A stretch of DNA of 64,000 nt from Sphaerotilus uruguayifluvii (GTDB lineage: Bacteria; Pseudomonadota; Gammaproteobacteria; Burkholderiales; Burkholderiaceae_C): assembly GCF_013294065.1 (NCBI RefSeq), contig NZ_JABSNM010000005.1, positions 1-64,000 on the forward strand, given 5' to 3'. The notes under the pieces were generated by a model. The model searched no databases, had not been told where the DNA came from, and saw nothing but the letters and a program-made list of their open reading frames with translations. The translations under genes were made by a program, and so were the position numbers. Of the stretch, positions 15,601-43,305 are shown in pieces (position 1 is the stretch's first letter; every line of letters starts with the position of its first letter).

Positions 15601-15680
15601 TGGACGTTCAGCCGCGGCAGGTCGGGCTGGGCAGCGCTCGACGAGGCGGTGGAACCATGGGGGGAGAGGGTGGCGGGCAT
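6618..15680 (-). CDS. Giant Calx-beta/VWA adhesin-like surface protein
   Basis: 3,020 residues. Residues 1-190 hold a module resembling the N-terminal retention/FecR-like part of LapA/BapA-type adhesins (GDVVLKGDVLLTRQNGVVEI). About 190-2325 are 17 Calx-beta repeats of roughly 126 residues, 16 of them opening with EDTCLVSI (first at 315, last at 2209). Then come a cadherin/VCBS-like domain (to about 2435), a T1SS-143-like domain, and a VWA domain with MIDAS D2597-x-S2599-x-S2601. A further VCBS-like segment and a cysteine-rich tail (about 2885-3020) follow. Calx-beta and VWA domains bind divalent metals and mediate adhesion, so an attachment or matrix role is inferred. Unusual points: one cysteine per repeat, no GGxGxD RTX nonapeptides, and no recognisable type I secretion C-terminus. 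No secretion-system gene is in the window. The start has only a weak Shine-Dalgarno-like AAGG. Confidence 0.85.
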   Translation of the reverse strand: MPATLSPHGSTASSSAAQPDLPRLNVHYVPSRLPAGVVVGLWGDAVMRQDDGGTHALQLGDVVLKGDVLLTRQNGVVEISLGGDAVATNVRPVTYPTGDDALDRIIASLDNGELEMEPGAGLEGGGDGSLQPGMIVDRVIEIVTPQEYQYAYDRTPSFVEPESADGTLGTGLDQGGGTDTGSGNGGEGSHHAQVGLGGPPSVIEGQTTGYTVSLSQPATTDVTVKLTYSGTATDGGDYTAITTVTIPAGQSSITFDLKTLDDALAEGAESVTITIGEISGTTAGQTITIDPAHASVTTTITDDVGDSGGGTPGAEDTCLVSISGPASVVEGEPATGYTVSLSQPAATDVTVKLTYSGTATDGSDYTAVTTVTIPAGQSSVTFDLKTLDDALAEGAETITISVGDITGGGFEAIAADPAQGSVTTTITDDVGGGGGGTPGAEDTCLVSISGPASVIEGEPATGYTVSLSQPAATDVTVKLTYSGTATDGSDYTAITTVTVPAGQSSVTFDLKTIDDALAEGSETITISVGDITGGGFEAIAADPAQGSVTTTITDDVGGSGGGTPGGEDTCLVSISGPAAGSITEGESGSYTVSLSQPAATDVTVKLTYSGTATDGSDYTAVTTVTIPAGQSSVTFDLKTIDDALAEGSETITISVGDITGGGFEAIAADPAQGSVTTTITDDVGGSGGGTPGSEDTCLVSIAGPAAGSITEGESGSYTVSLSQPATTDVTVKLTYSGTATDGSDYTAVTTVTIPAGQSSITFDLKTIDDALAEGSETITVSVGDITGGGFETVAADPAQGSVTTTITDDIGGSGGGTPGSEDTCLVSISGPASVVEGEPATGYTVSLSQPATTDVTVKLTYSGTATDGSDYTAVTTVTIPAGQSSITFDLKTIDDALAEGAETITISVGDITGGGFEAIAADPAQGSVTTTITDDVGGSGGGTPGSEDTCLVSIAGPASVVEGEPATGYTVSLSQPAATDVTVKLTYSGTAADGSDYTAVTTVTIPAGQSSITFDLKTIDDALAEGSETITVSVGDITGGGFEAIATDPAHGSVSTTITDDIGGSGGGTPGAEDTCLVSISGPTSVVEGEPATGYTVSLSQPATTNVTVKLTYSGTATDGSDYTAVTTVTVPAGQSSVTFDLKTLDDAQAEGSETITISVGDITGGGFEAVAADPAQGSVTTTITDDVGGGGGGTPGAEDTCLVSIAGPAAGSITEGESGSYTVSLSQPAATDVTVKLTYSGTATDGSDYTAVTTVTVPAGQSSVTFDLKTIDDALAEGSETITISVGDITGGGFEAIAADPTHGSVTTTITDDVGGGGGTPGAEDTCLVSIAGPAAGSITEGESGSYTVSLSQPAATDVTVKLTYSGTATDGSDYTAVTTVTIPAGQSSVTFDLKTLDDALAEGSETITVSVGDITGGGFEAVAADPAQGSVTTTITDDVGGSGGGTPGAEDTCLVSIAGPTSVVEGEPATSYTVSLSQPAATDVTVKLTYSGTATDGSDYTAITTVTVPAGQSSATFDLKTLDDALAEGAETITVSVGDITGGGFEAIAADPAQGSVTTTITDDVGGGGGGTPGAEDTCLVSISGPASVVEGEPATGYTVSLSQPAATDVTVKLTYSGTATDGSDYTAVTTVTIPAGQSSVTFDLKTIDDALAEGAETITISVGDITGGGFEAIAADPAQGSVTTTITDDVGGSGGGTPGGEDTCLVSIAGPAAGSITEGESGSYTVSLSQPAATDVTVKLTYSGTAADGSDYTAVTTVTVPAGQSSVTFDLKTIDDALAEGAETITISVGDITGGGFEAIAADPAHGSVTTTITDDVGGGSGGTPGSEDTCLVSITGPGEVVEGQVAEGYVVSLSQPSAQGVVVGLSYSGTAVDGSDFVRVASITIAAGQTQATFSISTLDDALAEGAEQFTVAIARIGAPGSEATAVDPAHGAVTTTLIDDVGGSGGGTPGAEDTCLVSISGPGEVVEGEVAGGYTVSLTQPAQTDVTVRLVCSGTASAGTDFIQVASVTIPAGQSQASFDLKTLDDALAEGTETITLTLGTISGGGFEAIAGDPARASVTTLLHDDAGPSGPGTPGAEDTCLVSISGPTTVVEGETAGGYTVSLSQPAATDVTVKLAYTGTATDGSDYSAVTTVTIPAGQSSVAFDLKTLDDALAEGKETLTVSVGEISGGGFEAIVVHPLERSVTTTLLDDAGPFGPGTPGAEDTCLVSITGPAAVAEGAVASGYTVTLSQAAITDVVIRLNYGGSASAGSDFAPVASVTIPAGSRSASFDLPTAADGVAEGGEQITVTLGTISGGGFEVLRGDPGAFSVTTQIADGNSAPVLQADRAVTPEDTAVSGNLLANDRDADGDTLTVTHFTWNDQSFTAGSSATIAGVGTLTVGSDGQFLFTPAKDYAGAVPAASCTVSDGHGHAAVSTLTLAITPVDDAPVLRGGTALLSEEGLPGGRPETGDPVTTCATGRLQFSDVDSSTLSFTLGAPSGLYSSGGVALSWSGDGSAAHPLVGSAGGQPVLSATIDAEGRYTVTLHAPLDHPVRGSEDLLTLSLGVQVSDGHSSSSATIDVGVRDDSPVPLCVARCADLSLVQTNLLVTLDVSGSMSTRDGIDGQTRLQSAIASIEKLIDSYAEHGDVMVRLVTFSTGASERGACWMTADQARSALHCLSAGGNTNYDAALDAARGAFDDPGRLVDGQSVAYFFSDGRPNLPTSDVGIDAAEQKTWESFLDSHDIRSYAIGLGCDVPVSALAPVAHDGVDHNDSISPLLVTRFEQLDAALAQTVADPVQGDLVAGGLDHAAGADGGHLSALIVDGVQHRWDPATSASDTVTVRTASGGEFTFNMENGHYSYQPPAGASHDYQEKIGFVLTDADGDSRTGSLTLGIDVDGNGHCDVQCAPATSCLVPDTSGCLTGSILNWSLADPCSHDGLTTTDATHTTSTGSCSSGGTTDTLHCGDLLTQAADLLAQWSSGGGTGGSCTSAPAPTCAPAPAPADCSGVLSSAEQLLAQTLIRQASDTSSHCGP
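8713..15100 (-). repeat. 17-unit tandem array encoding Calx-beta domains, period about 378 bp
   Basis: The DNA repeats with a period of about 378 bp (126 codons). Sixteen GAGGACACCTGC-type unit heads can be counted on the minus strand, from 14738 down to 9056. Units in the middle (about 10200-14700) are almost identical at the base level, while those nearest the C-terminal part (8713-10180) have diverged. Two interchangeable unit heads occur: SGPASVVEGEPATG and AGPAAGSITEGESG. Because the period is a multiple of three and codon bias is extreme, other frames stay open through the array. Exact outer limits are approximate. Confidence 0.9.
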
Positions 15681-22109: not shown

Positions 22110-22460
22110 GCCGGAGTTGATCCTGGTCGGCCTTCGAGTGCGTATTGCACGCCAGACTGCGCGGTGATGCGGCAGTACCGGGATTGCGGGATTACTTGTT
22201 TTCTCAATTCGAACGACCGTTACAGAATTCGGCGTACTGTCTGATTTGCACCTCTGTCAGAGTCACAGTTGGTACAAGTCTTCACTCTCTCGTTAATACG
22301 TCACACAATCGTGATCCAGTCTCCCTTGCGTGAGGGGGAGCCGGTCGAGCCGATGTCGAGGCCGGACCGCTTGGGTCGAAAATCCGGAGGGCAGGGATGC
22401 CAGCCTTCCGCGCGGCGGGATGCGCAAGGGCATCCAGTGTTTGCCAAGGGGGCTGCAAGA
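22110..22460. other. Gap before the exopolysaccharide cluster
   Basis: 351 bases without a gene, clearly richer in A and T than the flanks in its middle (about 22180-22320). It contains a short inverted repeat (GTGC-GTATT-GCAC, around 22139) and the promoter candidate listed next. About 160 bases lie between that promoter and the first start codon, so the transcript would have a long leader; no known riboswitch consensus was recognised in it. In-frame ATGs upstream of 22461 have no Shine-Dalgarno and no conserved sequence. Confidence 0.5.
22269..22298 (+). promoter_or_regulatory. Candidate sigma-70 promoter of the sugar transferase gene
   Basis: TTGGTA (22269-22274) and TTAATA (22293-22298) are separated by 18 bases in the AT-rich part of the gap. 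Both hexamers are partial matches and nothing else supports the call. Confidence 0.35.
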
Positions 22461-23870
22461 ATGTTTCGAGTTTTCCAGCACCGGTCGTCGGGAACCCACT
22501 TCGTGGAACTGTTCGCCGATGGTCTGCTCTGCTTCATCGCCGCGCTGCTGTCTGCAGCCACGCTGGCCAGTCCGGTGCCCGGAGCCAGTCCGCTGACCCA
22601 GGTCATCACGCCGACGATCCTCTTCTCGGCCTTCTCCTTCGCGCTGGTGATGGCGCTGCTGTACTCCTTCGTCGGCCTGTACCGTCATCGCAACCTCGGC
22701 CTGGTGCCGATGGTGCTGCGCATCGGCTTCGCCTTCCTGGTCGGTGGCTACATCACCTACCTGACGATCAAGTACATCCGCTATGACGGCTACGCCAGCA
22801 GCCTGGTCGGCTACTCGCTGGTCTACCTGATGGTGGGTCTGGCGATCTACCGTGGCGTGGCCTGGGGCGTGCGTCAGGTCGTCGGCACCCGTCGCGTGCT
22901 GATCGTCGGCACCGGCCCGGATGCGCGCCAGGTCTGCACCGACCTGCGCGCCGGCGGCCAGTGGGCCGGCTACGACGTCGTCGGCTTCTACCCGACCACC
23001 GAGCAGACCGACCGGGCCGCGCTGCGTGGCGCCGCCCATGTGTTCGATGCCCGCCAGAAGCTGGTCGACCTGGTGCGCGAGCACCGCATCAACGAGATCA
23101 TCGTCGCGGTGCGTGAGCAGCGCGGCGGCGGCGTGCCGATGAACGATCTGCTCGAGTGCCGCATCGGCGGCGTGCCGATCATGGATCTGGCCTACTTCTA
23201 CGAGCGCACGAAGGCCGAGGTGCCGGTCGACAGCCTGAAGGCCAGCTGGCTGGTCTACGGCGACGGCTTCGTCCAGGGCCATGCCCGCGAGATCACCAAG
23301 CGCCTGTTCGACATCGTCAGCTCCTCGGTGCTGCTGGTGCTGGGTGCGCCGGTCATGCTGCTGACCGCGCTGGCGATCCGCCTCGACAGCCCCGGCCCGA
23401 TCCTCTACAAGCAGGAGCGCGTCGGCATGAGCGGCAAGGGCTTCATGTGCATCAAGTTCCGCAGCATGCGCACCGATGCCGAGAAGGATGGCGTGGCCCG
23501 CTGGGCGTCCAAGAACGACTCGCGTATCACCCGCGTCGGCGCCTTCATCCGCAAGACCCGCATCGACGAGCTGCCGCAGCTCTTCAGCGTGCTGCGCGGC
23601 GAGATGAGCATGGTGGGTCCGCGTCCGGAGCGCCCGTCCTTCGTCGCCCAGCTGCGCGAGCAGATTCCCTACTACGACCTGCGCCACACGGTGAAGCCGG
23701 GCCTGACCGGCTGGGCCCAGGTCCGCTACGCCTACGGCGCCTCGCTCGAGGACGCGCGCAAGAAGCACCAGTTCGACCTGTACTACGTCAAGAACAACTC
23801 GCTGCTGCTGGACCTGCAGGTCCTGATCGAGACGGTCAGCGTGGTGCTGTTCCGCGAGGGAGCGCACTGA
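22461..23870 (+). CDS. Sugar-phosphate transferase of the XrtA/PEP-CTERM exopolysaccharide type
   Basis: 469 residues. It starts polysaccharide synthesis by moving a sugar-1-phosphate onto undecaprenyl phosphate at the inner membrane. Four N-terminal membrane segments (about 10-135) are followed by a Rossmann-like domain (VLIVGTGPDARQV), a fifth membrane segment (about 280-305), and the catalytic domain with KFRSMRTDAE, RKTRIDELPQL, GPRPERP and GLTGWAQVRY. The C-terminal pattern (SLEDARKKHQFDLYYVKN) is that of the PEP-CTERM-associated transferase family I know as TIGR03013. ATG 22461 follows AAGGGGG. A strong terminator separates it from the exporter gene, so it is probably its own transcription unit. 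Confidence 0.88.
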   Translation: MFRVFQHRSSGTHFVELFADGLLCFIAALLSAATLASPVPGASPLTQVITPTILFSAFSFALVMALLYSFVGLYRHRNLGLVPMVLRIGFAFLVGGYITYLTIKYIRYDGYASSLVGYSLVYLMVGLAIYRGVAWGVRQVVGTRRVLIVGTGPDARQVCTDLRAGGQWAGYDVVGFYPTTEQTDRAALRGAAHVFDARQKLVDLVREHRINEIIVAVREQRGGGVPMNDLLECRIGGVPIMDLAYFYERTKAEVPVDSLKASWLVYGDGFVQGHAREITKRLFDIVSSSVLLVLGAPVMLLTALAIRLDSPGPILYKQERVGMSGKGFMCIKFRSMRTDAEKDGVARWASKNDSRITRVGAFIRKTRIDELPQLFSVLRGEMSMVGPRPERPSFVAQLREQIPYYDLRHTVKPGLTGWAQVRYAYGASLEDARKKHQFDLYYVKNNSLLLDLQVLIETVSVVLFREGAH

Positions 23871-23916: not shown

Positions 23917-23946
23917 ACAGCGCACGAGCCTTTGTTCGTGCGCTGT
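23917..23946 (+). terminator. Strong rho-independent terminator after the sugar transferase
   Basis: ACAGCGCACGA and TCGTGCGCTGT form a perfect 11-bp stem around an 8-base loop, 46 bases past the stop codon, and are followed by TTCGTTT. This is one of the best terminators in the window. Confidence 0.85.
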
Positions 23947-24153
23947 TTCGTTTGGGGTGATGTTCATTTTTTTCATTTGGGCGGAAATGCCGGTTCTGGT
24001 TCACGAATGGTCACGATTGCTGTCCGACAGGCCTGTTCTGTAAGGAATCATTGCAAACCGACGGTACGATCACGTCACCGTGTGGACAGACCGGCGGGAC
24101 AGATTGCTCTGGCTATCGCAGTTGGCTTGCAGTTATTGAAGAGAGGAATTCGC

Positions 24154-24789
24154 ATGAGGATCGAAACGGGCCGTCTCACGCGTGCGGCCGCATGGCTGCT
24201 GGCTTCGACGCTGGCTGTGGGGGCCCTGTCGGGTTGCGGCAGCATCGGCCGCTATCCGCCGGCGCCGCGCAGCGCCGAGACGCCGGACCACCGCTATCGC
24301 ATCGGCCCGCTGGACACGCTCAATGTCGTCGTCTGGCGCAACCCGGAGCTGTCGGCGACCGTCACCGTGCGTCCGGACGGCCGCATCTCCACGCCGCTGG
24401 TCGAGGATCTGCTGGCGTCGGGCAAGAACCCGTATGACCTGTCGCGCGAGATCGAGAAGGAACTCGGCAAGGTGATCCGCGATCCGGTCGTCACCGTGGT
24501 CGTCGGCTCGTTCCAGGGGGTCTACAGCGACCAGATCCGCATCGTCGGCGAGGCGGCCAAGCCGCAGAGCGTGGCCTTCCGCCAGAACATGAGCCTGCTC
24601 GACGTCATGATCCAGGCCGGCGGCCTGACCGACTTCGCCGACGGCAACTCGGCCGTGCTGGTGCGCGGCTCCGAAGGCGGCAAGCAGTACAGCGTCCGGC
24701 TGAAGGACCTGCTCAAGCGCGGCGACATCTCGGCCAACGTCGATGTCAAGCCGGGCGACATCATCATCGTGCCCCAGAGCTGGTTCTGA
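24154..24789 (+). CDS. Polysaccharide export lipoprotein (Wza-like, XrtA type)
   Basis: 211 residues. A lipoprotein signal peptide ends in the lipobox LSGC with the acylated cysteine at C28. It is followed by the polysaccharide export domain (YRIGPLDTLNVVVWRNPELS...VRPDGRISTPLVEDLLASG) and one SLBB domain (IRIVGEAAKPQSVAFRQ). Such proteins form or gate the outer-membrane exit for exopolysaccharide; this short form is the PEP-CTERM-associated exporter family. GAGAGG lies 7 bases before the ATG. The preceding 200 bases, after the terminator, are relatively AT-rich and should hold the promoter for the remaining five genes of the cluster, but no clear consensus was found. Confidence 0.88.
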   Translation: MRIETGRLTRAAAWLLASTLAVGALSGCGSIGRYPPAPRSAETPDHRYRIGPLDTLNVVVWRNPELSATVTVRPDGRISTPLVEDLLASGKNPYDLSREIEKELGKVIRDPVVTVVVGSFQGVYSDQIRIVGEAAKPQSVAFRQNMSLLDVMIQAGGLTDFADGNSAVLVRGSEGGKQYSVRLKDLLKRGDISANVDVKPGDIIIVPQSWF

Positions 24790-24878: not shown

Positions 24879-26420
24879 ATGAACGATTTCACCCGACAGG
24901 CTGCGATCTTGGCTGGAAGCGTATGGCGACACCGCTGGGTGGCGGTGGCCGTCGCGTGGCTGGTGGCCATTCTTGGTGCGCTGGTGGTCATGGTCGTGCC
25001 CGAGCGCCACGAGGCTCGAGCCCGGATCTATGTGGACACGCAGACCGTGCTGCGTCCGATGATGGTCGGTCTGGCCTTCCAGCCCGACATCGACCAGCAG
25101 GTTCGCATGCTCGGCCGCACGCTGATCTCGCGCCCGAACGTCGAGCGTCTGGTCAACAACCCCACGGTCGGACTCGAGAAGGTCGAGCCGTCGAAGGTCG
25201 ACAGCCAGATCGAGACGCTGATGAAGACCATCAAGGTCGAGCAGACCGGGGGCAACAACCTCTACGCCATCAGCTATCGCGACACCAACGGCGAGCGCGC
25301 CCAGCGCCTGGTCGAGGCCCTGGTCTCCATGTTCATGGAGAGCGGCATCGACTCCAAGCGCAAGGACTCGGCCGACGCGAGCCGCTTCATCGACGAGCAG
25401 ATCAAGTCCTACGAGACCAAGCTGACCGAGTCGGAGAACCGCCTGAAGGAATTCAAGCTGAAGAACATGAACGTCGCGGCGACGCAGACGCAGGACTTCT
25501 TCGGCCGGATCCAGTCGATGACCGACGAGGTCAACCGCCTGAAGGTGCAGCTCAGCGCCGCCGAGCGCTCGCGCGACGCGATCCGCCGCGATCTCGAGGG
25601 CGAGGATCCGCAGCTGCCGATGGGCGCCGCCTCCGCGGTGTCGATGACGCCGGACCTCGACGAGCGCATCCTCGCGCTCAAGCGCCAGCTCGACGACATG
25701 GAGCGCCGCTACACCGAGAACCACCCCGACGTGAAGACGACGCGGCGCATGATCACCGAGCTCGAGCAGAACCGTCGCGCCGAGCTCGACCGCCTGCGTG
25801 CCGAGAACCCGAAGCGCCGCACCGCCGCGACCAATCCGGTCTACCAGCGCCTGCGCAACAACCTCTCGGATGCCGAGGCCAACGTCGCCTCGCTGCGCGG
25901 CCAGCTCGAGGCCCAGGCCGCACGCCTGGAGGAGATCCGCTCGCAGGCCAACCGCGTGCCGCAGGCCGAGGCGGAGCTGGCGCAGATGAACCGCGACTAC
26001 GAGATCCTGCGTCGCAACTACGACCAGCTGGTGCAGCGCCGCGAGGCCGCCTCGCTGGGCGTGAAGATCGACCAGACCGCGTCGATGGCCGACTTCCGCA
26101 TCATCGAGCCGCCGCGCATGCTGCCGGCGCCGGTCTTCCCGAGCCGCATCCAGATGGCTGCGGGCGTGATGCTGCTGTCGATGGTGATCGGCGTCGCCGT
26201 CGCCTACGCGATGACGCTGGTCAACCCGACCTTCGCCAGCGAGCGCGAGCTGCGCGAGTTCACCAAGCGTCCGGTGCTGGGCAGCCTGACGAAGATCGAG
26301 GATCCTCGCGAGCGTGACCAGCTGCGCCAGGACCGCATGAAGCTGGCCGGCGTGATGGGGCTGTTCCTGCTGGCGAATGTCGGCTGGATGGCCTGGATCT
26401 CGATGCGCGCGGCCACCTGA
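24879..26420 (+). CDS. Chain-length determinant protein (Wzz/XrtA type)
   Basis: 513 residues. An N-terminal membrane helix (about 20-41) and C-terminal helices (about 424-446 and 488-506) enclose a long periplasmic domain with heptad-like coiled coil (about 165-410). The Wzz signature is present at the N-terminus (ARARIYVDTQTVL) and at the Pro-rich segment before the C-terminal helix (IIEPPRMLPAPVFPS). These proteins set polysaccharide chain length and pair with a cytoplasmic tyrosine kinase, here the next gene, 13 bases downstream. The extra third hydrophobic segment at the C-terminus fits the PEP-CTERM-associated chain-length family. Confidence 0.9.
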   Translation: MNDFTRQAAILAGSVWRHRWVAVAVAWLVAILGALVVMVVPERHEARARIYVDTQTVLRPMMVGLAFQPDIDQQVRMLGRTLISRPNVERLVNNPTVGLEKVEPSKVDSQIETLMKTIKVEQTGGNNLYAISYRDTNGERAQRLVEALVSMFMESGIDSKRKDSADASRFIDEQIKSYETKLTESENRLKEFKLKNMNVAATQTQDFFGRIQSMTDEVNRLKVQLSAAERSRDAIRRDLEGEDPQLPMGAASAVSMTPDLDERILALKRQLDDMERRYTENHPDVKTTRRMITELEQNRRAELDRLRAENPKRRTAATNPVYQRLRNNLSDAEANVASLRGQLEAQAARLEEIRSQANRVPQAEAELAQMNRDYEILRRNYDQLVQRREAASLGVKIDQTASMADFRIIEPPRMLPAPVFPSRIQMAAGVMLLSMVIGVAVAYAMTLVNPTFASERELREFTKRPVLGSLTKIEDPRERDQLRQDRMKLAGVMGLFLLANVGWMAWISMRAAT

Positions 26421-26433
26421 GGGAGTCATCCAG

Positions 26434-27408
26434 ATGAACACCATCGAGCAGGCCGCCAAGCGCCTGGCTGAACTCAAGCGCGCCGGCTACGACGTCCCGG
26501 TGCCCGACATGCCGGGCGGAAGCCCGGCGGCGCAGCCCGGCGCCACGCCCGCGGTGCCGCTGCCGGCCGAGGCCGGGCCGGCGGGCGCGTCCGCGCCGGC
26601 CGCCGTCGCGGCGGTCGCGGCGGCACCCGCGGTGCCTGCGGTGCGCAGCGCCCAGGTCGAGATGCTGCCCTCGTCCGGCCGGCGCTCGCGCGAGGTCATG
26701 ATCGACGTCGCCCGTCTCGAGCGCGAGGGCTATCTGGTGCCCACGCAGGCCCGCTCGCAGCTGGCCGAGCAGATGCGCATCATCAAGCGCCCGCTGCTGG
26801 CCAATGCCCGTGGCGAGACGGCGCAGCACATCCCGCGCGCCAACCTGATCCAGGTCGTCAGCGCGATGCCCGGCGAGGGCAAGACCTTCTTCGCGATCAA
26901 CCTCGCGATGAGCATCGCGATGGAGGTCGACCTGTCGGTGCTGCTGGTCGACGCCGACGTGCTGCGCCCCTCGGTGCTGGCGCGCTGCGGCATCGAGCCC
27001 TCGCGCGGCCTGATGGATGTGCTGAAGTCGCCCTCGCTCGACCTGGCCGACGTGATGCTGCGCACCAACGTGCCCAAGCTGACGCTGCTGCCGGCCGGCA
27101 CCGCCAACGCGCAGTCGACCGAGCTGCTGGCCAGCGCGGCGATGGAGAAGCTGCTCGACGAGCTGGCCTCGCGCTTCCCGGACCGCATCATCGTCTTCGA
27201 TGCGCCGCCGCTGATCCCGACCACCGAGTCGCGCGTGCTGGCGTCCCGCGTCGGCCAGGTCGTCATGGTCGTCGAGGCCGGCAAGACCACGCACGGGCAG
27301 GTCACGCAGGCCTATGCCGCGGTCGAGCAGTGCCCGATCGTGCTGTCGGTGCTCAACCGCGCCAGCACCAAGTCGAACGAGGCCTATGGCTATTACTACG
27401 CCACCTGA
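26434..27408 (+). CDS. Cytoplasmic tyrosine kinase (BY-kinase) of the exopolysaccharide system
   Basis: 324 residues. A Pro/Ala-rich N-terminal region (to about 70) precedes a BY-kinase domain with Walker A AMPGEGKTFFAINLA, Walker A' VLLVDADVLRP and Walker B RIIVFDAPP. The C-terminus ends in a tyrosine cluster (EAYGYYYAT) suited to autophosphorylation. The kinase would work with the adjacent chain-length protein to control polymerisation and export. The ATG at 26434 follows GGGAG by 9 bases; an earlier in-frame ATG inside the previous gene is unlikely. The next gene starts just downstream or overlaps, so translation is probably coupled. Confidence 0.9.
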   Translation: MNTIEQAAKRLAELKRAGYDVPVPDMPGGSPAAQPGATPAVPLPAEAGPAGASAPAAVAAVAAAPAVPAVRSAQVEMLPSSGRRSREVMIDVARLEREGYLVPTQARSQLAEQMRIIKRPLLANARGETAQHIPRANLIQVVSAMPGEGKTFFAINLAMSIAMEVDLSVLLVDADVLRPSVLARCGIEPSRGLMDVLKSPSLDLADVMLRTNVPKLTLLPAGTANAQSTELLASAAMEKLLDELASRFPDRIIVFDAPPLIPTTESRVLASRVGQVVMVVEAGKTTHGQVTQAYAAVEQCPIVLSVLNRASTKSNEAYGYYYAT

Positions 27409-27418
27409 GGCTGCCGCG

Positions 27419-29089
27419 GTGCGGCGCATCGTGCTGTCCGTGCTCGGTGCGCTGGCCGTGGTGGCGGCCCAGGCCCAGCAGGTGCCGGGCGCAGCGGCCA
27501 ACGATGCCGGCGCGGCCGCGACGCAGTTCAACCCGAACCGCACGCCGGTCAACGCGATTCCCGACGCCGCCCAGGCGCTCGGCGGCGTCGGCGGCGCGCC
27601 GCCTCCGGCGGCCGCCTCGGCGCCGGCGCGCGGATGGCGCGTGGCGCCGGCGCTGAAGGTCACGGCCACCGCGACCAACAACGTCGGCCTGCAGCAGGGC
27701 GACCGCCAGGCCGACGTCGTCACGACGGTCACGCCGCAGCTGCAGCTGCTCGGCACCGGGCCGGACTACCGGCTCAATGCCAACGTCGCCGCCGACGTGG
27801 TGCAGTACCTCGGCCGCACCCGCGCCGACCGCATCTTTCCGCGCGGCCAGGTGGCGCTGAACGCGCGTCTGCTCGAGCGGCTGTTCTTCGTCGACGCCGA
27901 GCTCGGTGCCGACACCACCTCGTCGACGCCCTTCGAGATGCTCGGCGACGGGGCCACCTACTACACCGCCAGCACCGTCACCCGCGAGCGGATCAGCCCC
28001 TACATCGACCGCGAGCTGTCGCCGGGGTCGCGCTTCACCGCGCGCAGCGACAACACCTGGTCGCAGGGCCGGGGCACCGGCACCGCCGCGGCGGCGCAGC
28101 TCAACGCCGACGCGCATGTGCGCACCGACACGCTGCGCTACGACCTGCGCCCGCAGCCGACCGGCCTGCGTGCCGAGTACAACCGCCAGGACACCCGCTA
28201 CCGCGACAGCGCCGGCAGCCTCGTGCTGGCCACCGCGCGGCTGTCGGCGCTGTACGCTCCGGATCCGACGCTCACGCTCGGCGTGACCGGCGGCAGCGAC
28301 GGCGCCGACTACTCGACCAACTCGGTGCGCGAGACGCTGCGCGGCGTGCTGCTGCGCTGGGCGCCGTCCGAGCGCACCGTGTTCGACAGCCTGGTCGAGA
28401 AGCGCTTCTTCGGCACCGGCTGGAACGCCACGCTGACGCACCGCTCGCCCTTCATGGCGCTGTCGGCCGGACTGCAGCGCCAGGCCTCGACCTACGCGTC
28501 GCGCCTGGGCACGCTGCAGGCCGGCGGCGACGTGGCCACGATGATCGACGCGATGCTGCAGACGCGCATCCTCGACGAGGCCACCCGCCAGGCCGCGGTG
28601 CAGGACCTGATGAGCAAGCGCGGCCTGTCGAACTCGCTGGGCAGCGCGGTCGACCTGTACTCGCGCACCGTGCAGGTCCAGCAGGGCGTCAACGTCACGC
28701 TGGCGCTGGTCGGCGTGCGCCACACCTTCACGATGCGGCTGTACCAGACGCGGCTGGAGGACTATCACGGCGGGAACGAGGACAGCAGCGGCATCGTCGG
28801 CCTGGCCAGCGACTCGATCCAGCGCGGCATGACGCTGGGGCTGAGCCGCCGGCTCGATCCGGACACGACCGCCTCGGTGACGCTGACACGCGCACGCACC
28901 GAGGGCATCGGCGCCAACGCGACGCTGGGCACGCGCAGCGGCACGATCGTGCGGCTCGGCCTGTCGCACGCGCTGTCGCCGCGCACGACGGTCACCGGCG
29001 CGCTGCGCCACCAGTCCGGCTCGACCTCGCTGATCAGCCCGACGGCCAGCGAGACCGGCCTCTCCGCCGGCCTGCTGCACCGTTTCTGA
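27419..29089 (+). CDS. Outer-membrane beta-barrel protein of the XrtA exopolysaccharide system
   Basis: 556 residues if the GTG at 27419 is used. That start gives a clean signal peptide (MRRIVLSVLGALAVVAAQAQQ), with cleavage probable at AQA/QQ, and has GAGG 9 bases upstream. An ATG at 27386 inside the kinase gene is the alternative but would lengthen the signal peptide. The mature part has many alternating amphipathic strands (LKVTATATNNVGL, TLTLGVTGGSDG, TASVTLTRART) and ends in LLHRF, a typical barrel C-terminus. It corresponds to the PEP-CTERM-associated outer-membrane protein family found between the kinase and ATPase genes; an exit pore or docking role is inferred. Confidence 0.8.
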   Translation: MRRIVLSVLGALAVVAAQAQQVPGAAANDAGAAATQFNPNRTPVNAIPDAAQALGGVGGAPPPAAASAPARGWRVAPALKVTATATNNVGLQQGDRQADVVTTVTPQLQLLGTGPDYRLNANVAADVVQYLGRTRADRIFPRGQVALNARLLERLFFVDAELGADTTSSTPFEMLGDGATYYTASTVTRERISPYIDRELSPGSRFTARSDNTWSQGRGTGTAAAAQLNADAHVRTDTLRYDLRPQPTGLRAEYNRQDTRYRDSAGSLVLATARLSALYAPDPTLTLGVTGGSDGADYSTNSVRETLRGVLLRWAPSERTVFDSLVEKRFFGTGWNATLTHRSPFMALSAGLQRQASTYASRLGTLQAGGDVATMIDAMLQTRILDEATRQAAVQDLMSKRGLSNSLGSAVDLYSRTVQVQQGVNVTLALVGVRHTFTMRLYQTRLEDYHGGNEDSSGIVGLASDSIQRGMTLGLSRRLDPDTTASVTLTRARTEGIGANATLGTRSGTIVRLGLSHALSPRTTVTGALRHQSGSTSLISPTASETGLSAGLLHRF

Positions 29090-29107: not shown

Positions 29108-31534
29108 ATGTACGAATCCCACTTCGGTTTCAGCGGCCCGCCCTTCCAGCTCAACCCGGATCCGGCGTTCTACTTCAACAGCCGCGGCCACGGCCGCGCG
29201 CTGGCCTACCTGCAGTACGGTGTCGCGCAGGCCGAGGGCTTCGTCGTCATCACCGGCGAGATCGGCGCGGGCAAGACCACGCTGGTGCGCATGCTGCTCG
29301 ACGGGCTGGACCGACAGAAGGTGCTGCCGGCGCAGATCGTCAGCACCCAGCTGGAGTCGGGCGAGCTGCTGCAGTCGATCATCACCGCCTTCGGCATTCC
29401 CGCGCAGGCCAGCAGCTCCAAGGCGCACCTGATCGCGACGCTGGAGGCCTTCCTGACCGCGCTGGCGGCGCAGGGGCGTCATGCGCTGCTGATCGTCGAC
29501 GAGGCGCAGAACCTTGAACCGCGCGCGGTCGAGGAGCTGCGCATGCTGTCGAACTTCCAGCTCGGCAACCATGCGCTGCTGCAGAGCTTCCTGGTCGGCC
29601 AGCCGGAGCTGCGCCGCCTGCTCGAGTCGCCGACGATGGAGCAGCTGCGCCAGCGCGTGACCGCGTCCTGCCACCTCGGGCCGCTGACGCTCGCGGAGGC
29701 GCGCGACTATGTCGAGCACCGGCTGCGCCATGTCGGCTGGGACGGCCGTCGTCCGGCCTTCGCCGACTCCGCCTTCGACAGCCTGTTCCGCTGGTCCGGC
29801 GGCGTGCCGCGGCGCCTGAACCGCCTGACCAACCGCTCGCTGCTGGCGGCCTTCCTCGACGGCGCCGACACCATCGACGCCGAGCTGGTCGAGCGCACCG
29901 CCGCCGAGCTGCGCAGCGAGATCGGCGAGGGCGACCTGGCGCCGGTCGAGCCGCTGGCGGCTGCGTCGGCGGTGGACGCGCCTGCGCCGGCCCCCGTTCC
30001 GGTCGCCGAACCCGTGGCGCCACCCCCTTCGGCGCCGGTGCTGCAGTTCATCGCGCCGCCGGCACCGGCTCCGGTTCCGAGCCCGGCGGCGACGCCCGAG
30101 CCTGCGCCGGCACCGGCGGCCGAGGCGCCCGCACCGGCCACGATCGAGCTCGACGAGCGCGCGCGCGACTCGCTCGAACGCGAGCCGCTGCCGCGCATGG
30201 CGCTGCCGGCGGCCCGTCTGCAGGCGCTCACCTCCGCGATCCGCGCCGCGCGCAGCCATGCCGACGGCCTGCTGGCGCGCCGCGCCAGCCGCGATGTCCT
30301 GCTGTGCCTGGCCGACAGCACCAGCGCCGCGCTGAAGTTCGCCGCGCTGGCCGAGGCGATGGCCGAGATCGGCCGCGCGCCGCGCATGGTGCTGGTCAGC
30401 CTCGGGCCCCTGCCTCTGGTCTGGCCGTGGAACGGCATGGGCCGCGTGCTGCCGACGCTCGAGGTCGGCCTCGATCTCGAATGGGTGCCGGGCGACATCG
30501 AGCAGAGCATCTCGCGCATGACCGAGGGGCTCGGCCAGTTCATCGAGGAATTCGCGCCGATGGCGGTGCTGAGCCTGGGATCGAGCGACGCGATGACCGC
30601 CTGCTGCCTGGCCGCGCACCAGCGCGGCCTGCCGCTGCTGCGGCTGGAGGCCGGCACCCGCACCACCGGGCCGCAGGCCTGGAACGCGACGATGATCGAG
30701 CAGGCGGCCGACGTGCTGTTCGTGCCGGGGCAGGCGGCGCCGATGGGCCAGCTGCGGCGTCAGGGCCTGCAGCCGGATAGGCTGTTCTGCGTGCCCGACC
30801 GGCTCGAGTCCGACGCGCTGGCGCGGCTGTGGCCGGAGGTGCCCGCACCGTCCGGGGCCTGCCTGCGCAACGGCCTGCCGATGTATTTCGGCCCGACCTG
30901 GTCGGTCAATGGCGTCGAGGGCGAGCCCTTCATGCTGGTGGCGGTCTCGCTGCTCGGCCATCCGGTCGAGGCGGCTCGGCGACTGGTCGAGGCGCTGCTG
31001 GGTGCGGGCGGCCCGATGCGCCGGCTGTGGATGATCGATGCGCCGACCCGCGAGGCGCTGAAGGCGCTGCTGGCGCAGCAGCCTGCGCTCGACGGTCCGG
31101 TGCTGCTGATGCCGTCGGGCGGACCGCGTCCGGCCGGCCTGCGCGAGCGCATCGACGCGGCGCGGTTGCTGTGCTGCGAGGTCGGCTCGCTGCCGGAGCA
31201 GATCGGCCTGCTGTGCGGCGCCAGCGCCGCGCTGGTCGAAGGCGGCCATGTGCTGGCCGACGCGGCGGCCCGGCTGGGCATCGCGCTGGCCGGTGTCGAC
31301 GTCTCGCGCGGCGTGCTGCTGGGCACCGCGTCCGAGGGTCCGGCGGCCGAGTCGCCGCTGGAGGCTGCGACGCTGTCGGCGCTGCTCGGCCTGGACGGTG
31401 CGGTCGCGCTGCGCGACGGCCCGGTCGAGCCGGTGAGTGCCTCCGGCGCCTCGGTCGAGATCGCCAGCTACCTGCAGGCCTGGATCGACCGGCTGATGTC
31501 GGACCGCGACGGACCGCTGCAGCCGGCCGCCTGA
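29108..31534 (+). CDS. XrtA-associated AAA ATPase fused to an epimerase-like domain
   Basis: 808 residues. Residues 1-275 are the PEP-CTERM-associated ATPase (ExeA/GspA-like): MYESHFGFSGPPFQLNPDP, Walker A GEIGAGKTT near 50-58, and Walker B LLIVDEAQN. A Pro/Ala linker follows (about 280-355). The remaining 450 residues are not part of the usual ATPase. They resemble a UDP-GlcNAc 2-epimerase (WecB) in layout: a Rossmann start VLLCLADSTSAALKFAALAEA, a central FIEEFAPMAVLSLGSSDAM, LPLLRLEAGTRTTG (E514), and a second Rossmann half with VEGGHVLADAAARLGIALAG. The epimerase motifs are eroded (HGDT and DSGGIQEE not preserved), so it may bind a nucleotide-sugar without catalysis. It ends the cluster, 19 bases from the convergent ftsY. 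Confidence 0.8.
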   Translation: MYESHFGFSGPPFQLNPDPAFYFNSRGHGRALAYLQYGVAQAEGFVVITGEIGAGKTTLVRMLLDGLDRQKVLPAQIVSTQLESGELLQSIITAFGIPAQASSSKAHLIATLEAFLTALAAQGRHALLIVDEAQNLEPRAVEELRMLSNFQLGNHALLQSFLVGQPELRRLLESPTMEQLRQRVTASCHLGPLTLAEARDYVEHRLRHVGWDGRRPAFADSAFDSLFRWSGGVPRRLNRLTNRSLLAAFLDGADTIDAELVERTAAELRSEIGEGDLAPVEPLAAASAVDAPAPAPVPVAEPVAPPPSAPVLQFIAPPAPAPVPSPAATPEPAPAPAAEAPAPATIELDERARDSLEREPLPRMALPAARLQALTSAIRAARSHADGLLARRASRDVLLCLADSTSAALKFAALAEAMAEIGRAPRMVLVSLGPLPLVWPWNGMGRVLPTLEVGLDLEWVPGDIEQSISRMTEGLGQFIEEFAPMAVLSLGSSDAMTACCLAAHQRGLPLLRLEAGTRTTGPQAWNATMIEQAADVLFVPGQAAPMGQLRRQGLQPDRLFCVPDRLESDALARLWPEVPAPSGACLRNGLPMYFGPTWSVNGVEGEPFMLVAVSLLGHPVEAARRLVEALLGAGGPMRRLWMIDAPTREALKALLAQQPALDGPVLLMPSGGPRPAGLRERIDAARLLCCEVGSLPEQIGLLCGASAALVEGGHVLADAAARLGIALAGVDVSRGVLLGTASEGPAAESPLEAATLSALLGLDGAVALRDGPVEPVSASGASVEIASYLQAWIDRLMSDRDGPLQPAA

Positions 31535-40315: not shown

Positions 40316-41152
40316 ATGCCTGAACTGCCTGAAGTCGAAGTCACCCGCCTCGGTCTGGTCGACCGCATCGAGGGCGCGCAGGTGCATGCGGTCCGCCTGG
40401 GCAAGCCGCTGCGCTGGCCGCTGGGCACCGATCCGCAGGCGCTGGCCGGCGCCCGCGTCGGCCGCCTGCAGCGCCGCGGCAAGTATCTCTGGCTGCCGCT
40501 GGGCGCCTGCGGCGGGCTGCTGCTGCACCTGGGCATGTCGGGCTCGCTGCGCTTCGATGCGGCCGAGGCGCTGCCGCCGGCCGGGCCGCACGACCATTTC
40601 GAGATGCAGACCGACCGCGGCCTGCTGCGCCTGACCGATCCGCGCCGCTTCGGCGCGGTGGTGTGGTCGAGCGCGCTCGACGCGGCGCCTGCGGCCACGC
40701 TGCTGGCGCGGCTGGGCGTCGAGCCGCTGTCGCCCGCCTTCAGCGCCAGCGTGCTGCAGCAGGGCCTGCGCGGGCGGCGCGTGCCGGTCAAGCAGGCGCT
40801 GCTGGCCGGCGACGTCGTCGTCGGCGTGGGCAACATCTACTGCTCGGAGGCGCTGTTCGCCGCCGGCATCGATCCGCGCCAGAGCGCCGGCACGCTCGAC
40901 CGCGCGGCCTGCGAGCGGCTGGTCGACACCGTCCGCGACGTGCTGCAGCGTGCGCTGGCCGCCGGAGGCTCGACGCTGCGCGACTTCCGCGACGTTCATG
41001 GCATGGGCGGCGCCTTCCAGCTGCAGGCGCAGGTCTACGGCCGCGAGGGCCTGCCGTGCCGGGTCTGCGCCACGCCGGTGCGGCGCATCGTGCAGGGCCA
41101 GCGTGCGACCTATTTCTGCCCACGCTGCCAGCGCCTGCCGCACGGATCCTGA
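40316..41152 (+). CDS. mutM: Formamidopyrimidine-DNA glycosylase
   Basis: 278 residues. MutM (Fpg) removes 8-oxoguanine and formamidopyrimidines and nicks the strand by beta/delta elimination. The catalytic N-terminus PELPEVE (P2, E3), K56 in RRGKY, the H2TH region with [15 protein letters not shown], and the C-terminal zinc finger ([11 protein letters not shown]...TYFCPRCQ) are all intact. It is followed on the same strand by a dynamin-like GTPase and then mutY, so both glycosylases of the 8-oxoG repair pathway lie in one run of genes. Confidence 0.96.
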
Positions 41153-41241
41153 ACTCGCGAATCCGCTGCGCTACCATGCCAGATCACCCCGGGCCGCGCG
41201 CTGCGCGTGCCGCTCGGACCAGCCTCAGCCACGCCACAGCG

Positions 41242-43305
41242 ATGAGCGAACATCTTTCCGGGCCGCAGGCGGCCCCGCCCGACGAACCCGTCCACGAGCC
41301 CTTCGTGCGCAGCCTCGACGCGCTCGGGCGCTGGCGCGCGGCGCTGCAGGAACGGGTGCACGACCTGTCGCGCTTCCTGCGCGAGCAGGGCCTGCTCGAC
41401 GAGAACGCCGACGACCTGCTCGACGCGCTGGCGCGGCGCCTGGCCGGCGAGAAGCTGGTGGTGGCCTTCGTCGCCGAGTTCTCGCGCGGCAAGTCCGAGC
41501 TGATCAACGCGATCTTCTTCGCCGATGCCGGCCGGCGCATCATGCCGGCCTCGCCCGGGCGCACGACGATGTGCCCGGTCGAGCTGGGCTGGGATCCGGA
41601 GGAGGCTCCGGGGCTGGCGCTGCTGCCGATCGAGACGCGGCTGGACGGCGCCTCGCTGGCCGAGCTGCGCGCGCAGCCGCGTGCCTGGCAGCGCGAGTCG
41701 ATCGACGTGCAGGACCCCGCCGCCTTCGCCCGCGCGCTCGACGCGGTGCGCGGCGTGCGCGCGGCCTCGGTCGACGAGGCGCGCCAGCTCGGCTTCTGGA
41801 ACGACGAGCAGCCGGCCGACAACCCGCCGATGCTCGCCGACGGCCAGGTCGAGATCCCGCGCTGGCGCCATGCGCTGATCAACGTGCCGCATCCGCTGCT
41901 CAAGCGCGGCCTGGTGGTGCTCGACACCCCGGGGCTGAACGCGATCGGCGCCGAGCCGGAGCTGACGGTCGGCCTGCTGCCGAGCGCGCATGTCGCGGTC
42001 TTCGTGCTGGGCGCCGACACCGGCGTGACCCGCTCGGACCTGGAGATCTGGCGCGACCACCTCGCCTCGCAGGCGCTGGCGCGCTATGTGGTGCTGAACA
42101 AGATCGACGCGCTGATCGATCCGCTGTCGCCGCGCGAGCACAGCCTGGCGCAGATCGCCTCGCAGTGCGAGCAGGTGGCGCGCACGCTGGGCATCGCGCC
42201 GGAGCGGGTCTTTCCGCTGTCGGCGCGCCAGGCGCTGGCCGCGCGGGTCGAGGGCGACGTGGCGCGGCTGGCCGACAGCCGGCTGCCCGCGCTCGAGCAG
42301 GCGCTGGCGCAGCAGCTGCTGCCCGAGCGGCGCGCGGTCTTCGAGCAGCTCACGCTCGAGGCGCTGGGCGTGATCCGCGCCCAGACCGGCCGCACGCTCA
42401 ACGACCTGCGCCGCCAGCTCGCCGAGCAGCTCCAGGAGCTGCGCGGCCTGCGCGGCAAGAGCGGCGCGAAGGTGCAGCTGCTGCTGCAGCGCGTCGGCGC
42501 CGAGACGGCCGAGTTCGAGCAGTGCACCGCGCAGATCCAGGCGCTGCGCGTCGTGCACTCGCGCTCGCTCAAGGCGGTGCTGGCGACGCTGGCCAGCGAC
42601 ATGCTCAAGCGCGAGGTCGATGCGATGATCGGCTCGATCCGCGACTCCTTCCTGAAGCTGGGCGCGCGGCGCTCCTACACCCAGCTCTTCGCCGACCTGC
42701 GCCAGGCGCTGGAGACGGCGCAGCAGCAGGGCGGCGAGCTGCGCGAGCTGCTGTCGGCCTCGTGCCACCGGCTCAATGCCGAGTTCGGCTTCAGCCTGAT
42801 GGTCCCGCCGGCGCCGGAGCTGGCGCGCTTCCGCGACGATCTGGCGCTGATCGAGCGCAACTACATCCAGTACCTCGGCCTGACGCAGGCGGTGCGGCTG
42901 GCGCAGCCGCGCTTTCTCGAGCAGTTCCGGCGCATGCTGATGTCGCGCCTGCGTGCGGTCTTCGAGGGCGCGGCCGGCGAGATCGAGCTGTGGAGCCGCA
43001 CGCTGTCGGGGCAGATCGACGCGCAGCTGCGCGAGCGCCGCAAGGCCTTCAAGCGCCGGCGCGAGTCGCTCGAGCGCATCCGCGCGGCCGCCGGCGAGCT
43101 GGAGTCGCGCCTGGCCGAGCTCGAGGCCCAGGACCAGCGCCTGGCCACGACCGAGGTGCGGCTGCAGGCGATGCACGAGCGGGTGCGCCGGGCCGCGATC
43201 CGCCACGAGCTGGCGCTGCCGAGCGACTTCGCCGCGCTGGCGGCGGCGCCGGTGCGCGCGGGGGGCTCGCCCGCGCCGGCCGCGCCGGTCTCCAGCGATG
43301 CCTGA
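41242..43305 (+). CDS. Dynamin-like GTPase
   Basis: 687 residues. The GTPase domain has an unusual dynamin-type P-loop AEFSRGKS (78-85), switch T in the PGRTTMCP segment, G3 DTPGLN and G4 LNKID. The rest is long alpha-helix and coiled coil (about 370-680) including a segment ELESRLAELEAQDQRLA. No clear transmembrane helix is seen. Bacterial dynamin-like proteins remodel or protect membranes; this family, placed between mutM and mutY, is common in Burkholderiales but its job is not known to me. Its stop overlaps the mutY start by 8 bases, indicating coupled translation. Confidence 0.82.
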   Translation: MSEHLSGPQAAPPDEPVHEPFVRSLDALGRWRAALQERVHDLSRFLREQGLLDENADDLLDALARRLAGEKLVVAFVAEFSRGKSELINAIFFADAGRRIMPASPGRTTMCPVELGWDPEEAPGLALLPIETRLDGASLAELRAQPRAWQRESIDVQDPAAFARALDAVRGVRAASVDEARQLGFWNDEQPADNPPMLADGQVEIPRWRHALINVPHPLLKRGLVVLDTPGLNAIGAEPELTVGLLPSAHVAVFVLGADTGVTRSDLEIWRDHLASQALARYVVLNKIDALIDPLSPREHSLAQIASQCEQVARTLGIAPERVFPLSARQALAARVEGDVARLADSRLPALEQALAQQLLPERRAVFEQLTLEALGVIRAQTGRTLNDLRRQLAEQLQELRGLRGKSGAKVQLLLQRVGAETAEFEQCTAQIQALRVVHSRSLKAVLATLASDMLKREVDAMIGSIRDSFLKLGARRSYTQLFADLRQALETAQQQGGELRELLSASCHRLNAEFGFSLMVPPAPELARFRDDLALIERNYIQYLGLTQAVRLAQPRFLEQFRRMLMSRLRAVFEGAAGEIELWSRTLSGQIDAQLRERRKAFKRRRESLERIRAAAGELESRLAELEAQDQRLATTEVRLQAMHERVRRAAIRHELALPSDFAALAAAPVRAGGSPAPAAPVSSDA

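Follow-up and report, generated by a model that had tools for sequence, protein, structure and literature searches.

An exopolysaccharide-locus ATPase joined to a predicted pseudo-epimerase domain in Sphaerotilus and related bacteria

One gene of the window (the whole stretch of 64,000 nucleotides of Sphaerotilus uruguayifluvii DNA analysed in this study) joins a pseudoenzyme domain to a known ATPase family. Its product begins as an AAA ATPase of an exopolysaccharide (EPS) locus and ends in a domain that is predicted to have the fold of the 2-epimerase WecB and probably to be catalytically inactive. Among relatives of the window's family that carry this ATPase, the fused and tail-less forms go with absence of XrtA, an association that is new here. 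The preservation of parts of a dead epimerase suggests a structural or regulatory role rather than an enzymatic one, and the fusion of an ATPase to a neighbour whose chemistry is off and whose fold is kept points at a physical contact between ATPase and WecB.

Results and Discussion

Layout of the fused gene and its operon

The open reading frame described in the first-pass annotation of this DNA was exact in its coordinates, and the Pro/Ala-rich linker is predicted to be disordered (Table 1). The XrtA-associated AAA ATPase that the same annotation had placed at the N-terminus was also confirmed, as TIGR03015 matches residues 1-271 of the protein with 349.1 bits against a cut-off of 324.5; the translation shows an intact Walker A motif (GEIGAGKT) and an intact Walker B motif (LLIVDEA). 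The gene is the final member of a same-strand row in which genes matching TIGR03013, TIGR03027, TIGR03007, TIGR03018 and TIGR03016 precede it. The named relatives closest to the window protein are those of S. sulfidivorans (92%) and S. natans (90%). The NCBIfam entry for the ATPase of these loci is a hypothetical equivalog, and we know of no role assigned to the ATPase of XrtA-type EPS loci. Elsewhere, the window encodes a giant LapA-like adhesin of 3020 aa (6621-15680, minus strand), with 16 LapA and 15 Calx-beta stretches as well as cadherin-like and VWA domains, and a Dynamin-family protein (40333-43302, plus strand; Dynamin_N 43.8 bits) whose gene adjoins a MutY-like gene.

Table 1. Coordinates, in the window, of the EPS genes and of the domains and altered residues of the fused protein (residue positions of WecB in E. 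coli numbering).
Feature	Coordinates	Strand	Basis
EPS polyprenyl glycosylphosphotransferase	22269..23870	+	TIGR03013, 483 bits
Polysaccharide export protein	23932..24789	+	TIGR03027
Chain length determinant	24879..26420	+	TIGR03007
Tyrosine autokinase	26377..27408, scanned from 26437	+	TIGR03018
Outer-membrane protein, directly upstream of the fusion gene	27380..29089	+	TIGR03016
Fused gene, 808 aa: EPS ATPase, linker and putative pseudo-epimerase	29108..31534	+	ORF, profile scans
AAA ATPase domain, residues 1-275	29108..29932	+	TIGR03015, translation
Pro/Ala-rich linker, residues 276-395, predicted disordered	29933..30292	+	Translation, full-length model
Putative pseudo-epimerase domain, residues 396-808, predicted WecB-like GT-B fold	30293..31531	+	Pfam, AlphaFold model, Foldseek
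UDP-contact Arg (R10) to Thr405	30320..30322	+	Alignment
Catalytic Asp (D95) to Ser492	30581..30583	+	Alignment
Asp494 (position 97), acid newly conserved in fused copies	30587..30589	+	Alignment
E131 and R135 to Gln523 and Ala527	30674..30688	+	Alignment
Phosphate-contact His (H213) to Ser614	30947..30949	+	Alignment, less sure in this half
S290, E296 and R313 to Gly712, Ala719 and Val736	31241..31315	+	Alignment, less sure in this half

Predicted fold of the C-terminal domain

The Pfam profile Epimerase_2 matches only residues 460-562 of the window protein, with a score (31.9 bits) just above the gathering cut-off of 30.6, and the wecB profile TIGR00236 gives 27.9 bits, far under its cut-off of 210.15. 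A phmmer search of the PDB with the window protein returned 2-epimerases, the best at 1.8e-6. When eight tails or stretches were scanned with Epimerase_2, the six fused ones scored 87.8-199.6 bits, with the profile nearly whole in four (L067, L065, L040 and L038) and about three quarters present in two (L043 and L045); the remaining two (L049 and L051) carry other kinds of tail. At L049 (3062-6406), a gammaproteobacterial ATPase of the TIGR03015 family continues into a long stretch rich in Pro and Ala and then a DnaJ domain.

The AlphaFold2 model of residues 371-808 (15 sequences) reached a pLDDT of 77.9 and a pTM of 0.81. The best 50 of its 1695 Foldseek matches in the PDB (E up to 10) are all identified as UDP-sugar 2-epimerases by title or name, with a best E of 5.6e-15, identities of 13-19% and TM-scores of 0.41-0.60 by query length; these matches include 8ahe, which was assigned to the 2-epimerases through the phmmer search, and structures of NeuC, MnaA and CapG, which we take to be members of the 2-epimerase family. 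These TM-scores would fit a different angle between the two lobes of the tail. The modelled fold agrees with the epimerase-like domain proposed in the first-pass annotation, whose WecB-like order of motifs, with counterparts of HGDTTT, EAGLRT and DSGGIQEEA, is as the alignment shows, and the tail is predicted to keep the GT-B epimerase fold. Chance resemblance of the tail to WecB was ruled out by the Epimerase_2 scans of the fused tails together with the Foldseek comparison. The full-length model is poorer (pLDDT 67.7, pTM 0.53) and holds no reliable information on the relative placement of ATPase and tail; the linker is probably flexible, because residues 279-393 of that model have a pLDDT under 50.

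Loss of active-site residues

Ten positions were scored in E. coli WecB numbering (R10, K15, D95, E117, E131, R135, H213, S290, E296 and R313), K15 being an addition to the sites described for GNE. All ten are kept in each of 18 separate WecB proteins encoded next to the ATPase gene, while the 39 distinct fused domains keep two sites (13 domains), three (9), four (12), five (4) or six (1), and no copy with an intact active site was found among these 39 tails. These 18 adjacent proteins were used for the counts because a 12-row WecB comparison, from which S_L079 and S_L042b had been left out as not at this locus, included two rows (S_L066 and S_L098) with no ATPase match in the stretch examined.

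The excerpted text of PMC4793188 on human GNE gives E. coli D95 as the equivalent of D112 and E131 as that of D143, describes D112 as the likely base with R147 paired to it, and has UDP held by R19, H220, S301, E307 and R321; about 2% of activity is left in the D112A mutant and none in E134A or D143A. Site equivalences other than D112/D95 and D143/E131 were assigned in this analysis. The window domain retains only K15 and E117 of the ten scored sites and none of the five UDP contacts (R10, H213, S290, E296 and R313), so the earlier impression that several catalytic positions had been lost was well founded. Among the 39 fused copies, R10 is retained in 9, D95 in 8, H213 in 2, S290 in 16, E296 in 22 and R313 in 9, with the alignment of the most decayed copies less sure in the C-terminal lobe than in the N-terminal lobe. 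Since the scored residues are lost in the fused copies and kept in separate WecBs, the window domain is regarded as a pseudo-epimerase, and we infer that the tail is catalytically inactive.

Distribution of the fusion and of tail-less copies

Of the 87 ATPase ORFs classified in the examined loci, some of which are represented twice, 46 are fused, 18 adjoin a separate epimerase gene and 23 show neither arrangement, six of these 23 being tail-less (L045 and L136-L140). Removal of seven duplicates left 39 distinct fused tails in relatives, not counting the window, so the fusion does occur in other genomes, and the two-domain frame recurs in separately sequenced Sphaerotilus, Rhizobacter, Piscinibacter and Aquabacterium. 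An assembly artefact was ruled out by the presence of the same fusion in several independent assemblies. Unlike other members of the genus that were examined, one genome (G003; L007, G003:C123) encodes the ATPase half and the epimerase-like half in separate frames that overlap, a break that is either a sequencing error or real. Because a single frame was the criterion for the fused class, an argument from the 39 in-frame tails would be circular and is no evidence against decay of the domain.

A second, more divergent tailed ATPase lies within about 7 kb in the genomes of L045, G270, G339 and G178, and G266 (L155) has two tailed ATPase copies. At L045, L136, L138, L155 and G178:C2:306810-314996, a divergent tailed ATPase and a closer copy lie within ~7 kb of each other, and the closer copy is tail-less in four of these five cases. 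A nine-row profile search of whole genomes detected no epimerase-like domain in G292 (100% complete; its ATPase locus is near a contig end) or in G057 (86%), and two of the five genomes searched whole thus contradict the idea that a tail-less genome always has a tailed copy as well. Since tail-less ATPases exist and two genomes are without such a domain, the tail is not indispensable across the clade. A search of 17 fused-clade genomes (G003 included) for other Epimerase_2 genes yielded a further match in 13 and none beyond the fused domain in four (G001, G002, G007 and G045), so the fused domain is retained whether or not the cell has another WecB.

Descent from wecB and probable fusion in place

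In other Burkholderiales, a separate wecB can come after the ATPase gene: of 25 loci with a separate ATPase in the window's family, 13 have an epimerase gene adjoining it and 12 do not; adjacency of wecB is therefore common, not universal. Ten loci, chosen for having an epimerase match, show the order export, chain length, kinase, outer-membrane protein, ATPase and wecB, with the last two as separate adjacent genes. A comparable order is given in the excerpted text of PMC3684757 for Rubrivivax gelatinosus (ATPase RGS1_10397, epimerase 10398, deacetylase, FemAB). In the Rhizobacter genome G189 (fused gene L141), an XrtA-type deacetylase gene (447 bits) begins 28 bases behind the fused gene, as if wecB had been fused where it stood.

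In the epimerase-domain tree, the nine fused copies included, which are the least decayed of the 39, group together (UFBoot 100) within the clade of WecB from XrtA loci. The neighbour of the fused clade is an intact WecB of G077, encoded beside deacetylase and FemAB genes elsewhere in that genome. WecB-like, deacetylase and FemAB genes are still together, away from the fused ATPase, at G077:C122:57696-60654 and G266:C1:669963-673068, and the G077 WecB is 68% identical to a WecB of an XrtA locus. The tree of 80 ATPase sequences splits separate copies from fused and tail-less ones (UFBoot 95, L051 aside); it is read as an unrooted split only because the outgroup L051 is very distant, and the rooting by L051, in which fused copies are basal, was set aside for the same reason. 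By these alignments and trees, the C-terminal domain derives from wecB of XrtA-type EPS loci, and the arrangement is most simply explained by in-situ fusion of the neighbouring ATPase and wecB genes. Origin from another WecB of the genome was ruled out, as the nine fused domains nest in the XrtA-locus WecB clade; the intact WecB of the window genome (C4:113141-114211; TIGR00236, 376 bits) belongs to another subfamily.

Absence of XrtA from the fused branch

Of 299 genomes drawn from the family, 105 contained the ATPase above cut-off, and by open-frame length 76 of these have a separate, 24 a fused and five a tail-less ATPase; the 24 and the five were verified on locus sequence, and 25 ATPase loci were inspected among the 76. 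XrtA was found above cut-off in 74 of the 76 genomes with a separate ATPase (on the same contig in 73, at a median distance of 4.4 kb), compared to one of the 29 fused or tail-less genomes (1/24 fused, 0/5 tail-less). The sole fused genome with XrtA, G268, has it on another contig; among the genomes with a separate ATPase, only G052 (74% complete) and G170 had no XrtA above cut-off. In a smaller, overlapping set, XrtA was present in 10/10 separate and 0/20 fused-clade genomes (G003 included), XrtA-type FemAB was above cut-off in 10/10 versus 3/20, and XrtA-type deacetylase in 10/10 versus 4/20. These counts essentially contrast one clade with the rest and do not represent independent events; a Fisher value calculated from them is to be disregarded.

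In the window genome, the profile search gave no XrtA match over the cut-off of 208 bits, the best being 151.9 bits for a gene that is XrtB (370.3 bits, cut-off 275). This XrtB gene (G000:C27, L132 9841-13160) lies beside EpsF- and EpsG-like genes, while the EPS operon in the window is of XrtA type yet has no XrtA. The family label of XrtA-associated ATPase does not describe the fused branch. The branch offers a natural experiment in which closely related EPS machinery occurs with and without the XrtA sorting module, and its bacteria include sheath formers such as Sphaerotilus.

Selection and newly conserved residues

The ratio of epimerase to ATPase distance, calculated without pairs whose ATPase identity is 0.95 or more, has a median of 3.31 in 741 fused pairs and 0.85 in 153 separate pairs; measured against the ATPase, the fused domain has thus evolved at about four times the rate of separate WecB. 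Five close pairs have dN/dS values of 0.10-0.26, and in each of them 0 of 500 neutral simulations was as low (medians near 0.7, with mutation bias assumed). More distant pairs give 0.45-0.83; these pairs have heavily substituted synonymous sites and a strong codon bias, and strong constraint is not favoured. The tail is under purifying selection in the close pairs, and the signal is weaker in the distant ones.

Several residues have become conserved in the fused copies. Position 97 carries an acid in 35 of the 39 fused copies (D in 30, E in five) versus N in 18/18 separate WecBs, position 243 is W in 36/39 versus F in 17/18, and position 115 is R in 23/39 versus H in 18/18. The 39 fused copies also keep K15 in 29, R121 in 29, N134 in 28 and an acid at position 117 in 30. 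The most conserved residues of the fused domain include glycines, prolines and aliphatics, which are probably core positions. Judged from these sequences, the tail has an ancestor of the active type, has lost its residues and is kept by selection in close pairs.

Possible roles of the fused domain

We favour, with a probability of about 0.5, an explanation in which the neighbouring genes were fused in place and the tail now serves the ATPase as a module for docking or oligomerisation, without catalysis. The WecB of the ancestral locus would probably already have touched the ATPase; once the cell could do without UDP-ManNAc from the locus, this contact alone would have been retained, tethered by a flexible linker, and the tail may position or regulate the ATPase at the export complex of its own EPS operon. 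Docking is favoured because the UDP site is gone, structural-looking residues are conserved and the tether looks flexible; the dispensability of the tail in six relatives, the out-of-frame arrangement in G003 and the fast evolution of the domain count against it. The gene order of the separate loci, the residue counts, the two trees, the predicted fold, the low dN/dS of close pairs and the XrtA counts speak for the explanation as a whole; the higher dN/dS of distant pairs, the 12 separate loci with no adjoining epimerase gene, the restriction of the XrtA association to essentially one clade and the fused genome with XrtA (G268) speak against it. The first-pass annotation had proposed a nucleotide-sugar sensing or docking domain that couples precursor supply to export. 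Its docking half is retained here as a possibility, while UDP-sugar sensing loses ground, as the residues that contact UDP have changed (0/5 kept in the window). Neither sensing nor coupling to precursor supply is supported by these data, given the changed contacts and the four of 17 fused-clade genomes without another Epimerase_2 gene for the presumed precursor. A tentative extension is that the fused genes mark an XrtA-free branch of the betaproteobacterial EPS export system in which a once biosynthetic enzyme, now a dead domain tied to the AAA ATPase, acts as a switch or scaffold with a newly conserved site around D494, R512 and W641.

The main rival to docking is a new ligand site, through which the pseudo-epimerase would bind a nucleotide sugar or other small ligand in a remodelled pocket and switch the ATPase on or off. 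The conserved set of residues, which are near the old active site or newly shared (97, 243, 115, K15, R121, N134 and 117), would suit such a sensor, but the known UDP contacts and the catalytic D95 are mostly lost in the 39 fused copies and all five contacts are changed in the window, and we consider it unlikely. Slow decay ranks next and is likewise improbable: the fusion would have occurred by chance once WecB was unneeded, and the cell would tolerate a tail that does little by itself and slowly erodes. Its fast divergence relative to the ATPase, the piecemeal loss of catalytic residues in different lineages, the tail-less copies, the two genomes without such a domain, the frame break in G003 and the dN/dS values of distant pairs are all consistent with a relic; however, the five close pairs reject neutral evolution under the assumed mutation bias, and new residues became conserved in the fused copies. 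That the domain is still an enzyme, with an altered active site and a different reaction on a nucleotide sugar, could be argued from the intact predicted fold and the conserved new polar residues. This seems very improbable, as the window has other residues in place of the two catalytic acids (D95 and E131) and of the arginine paired with D95, and the C-terminal-lobe positions vary among fused copies with no new common set. If the tentative extension to a switch or scaffold is true, WecB would have a second, hidden function in the ancestral XrtA locus, as a partner of the ATPase, and the role of the ATPase in these loci could be approached through WecB.

Comparison with known systems

In the open-access papers searched, no pseudoenzyme of the 2-epimerase family was found, and neither was a description of the ATPase/pseudo-epimerase architecture; the first-pass annotation had likewise known of no described protein of this kind. 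By a word search, PMC1569441 (Haft 2006) contains neither 'ATPase' nor 'epimerase'.

Compared to other TIGR03015 ATPases, the window gene shares the family (above cut-off) and the operon neighbours, but the open frames of separate members are mostly 355-464 aa, whereas that of the window has 808 aa and includes the pseudo-epimerase. Bifunctional GNE, according to the excerpted text of PMC4793188, likewise combines an epimerase of this fold with a further domain in one protein; its epimerase is active and hydrolysing and its partner is a ManNAc kinase, in contrast to the AAA ATPase partner of the window domain. Compared to WecB (TIGR00236, PF02350), the predicted fold is alike and the window domain descends from wecB of XrtA-type loci, but its catalytic and UDP-binding residues have changed, it scores far below the TIGR00236 cut-off and it is fused to an ATPase. 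Pseudoenzymes as a class keep the fold of an enzyme, have lost catalytic residues and are retained by selection, and the window tail, with its predicted epimerase fold, its changed catalytic residues and its retention by selection in close pairs, resembles them in all three respects.
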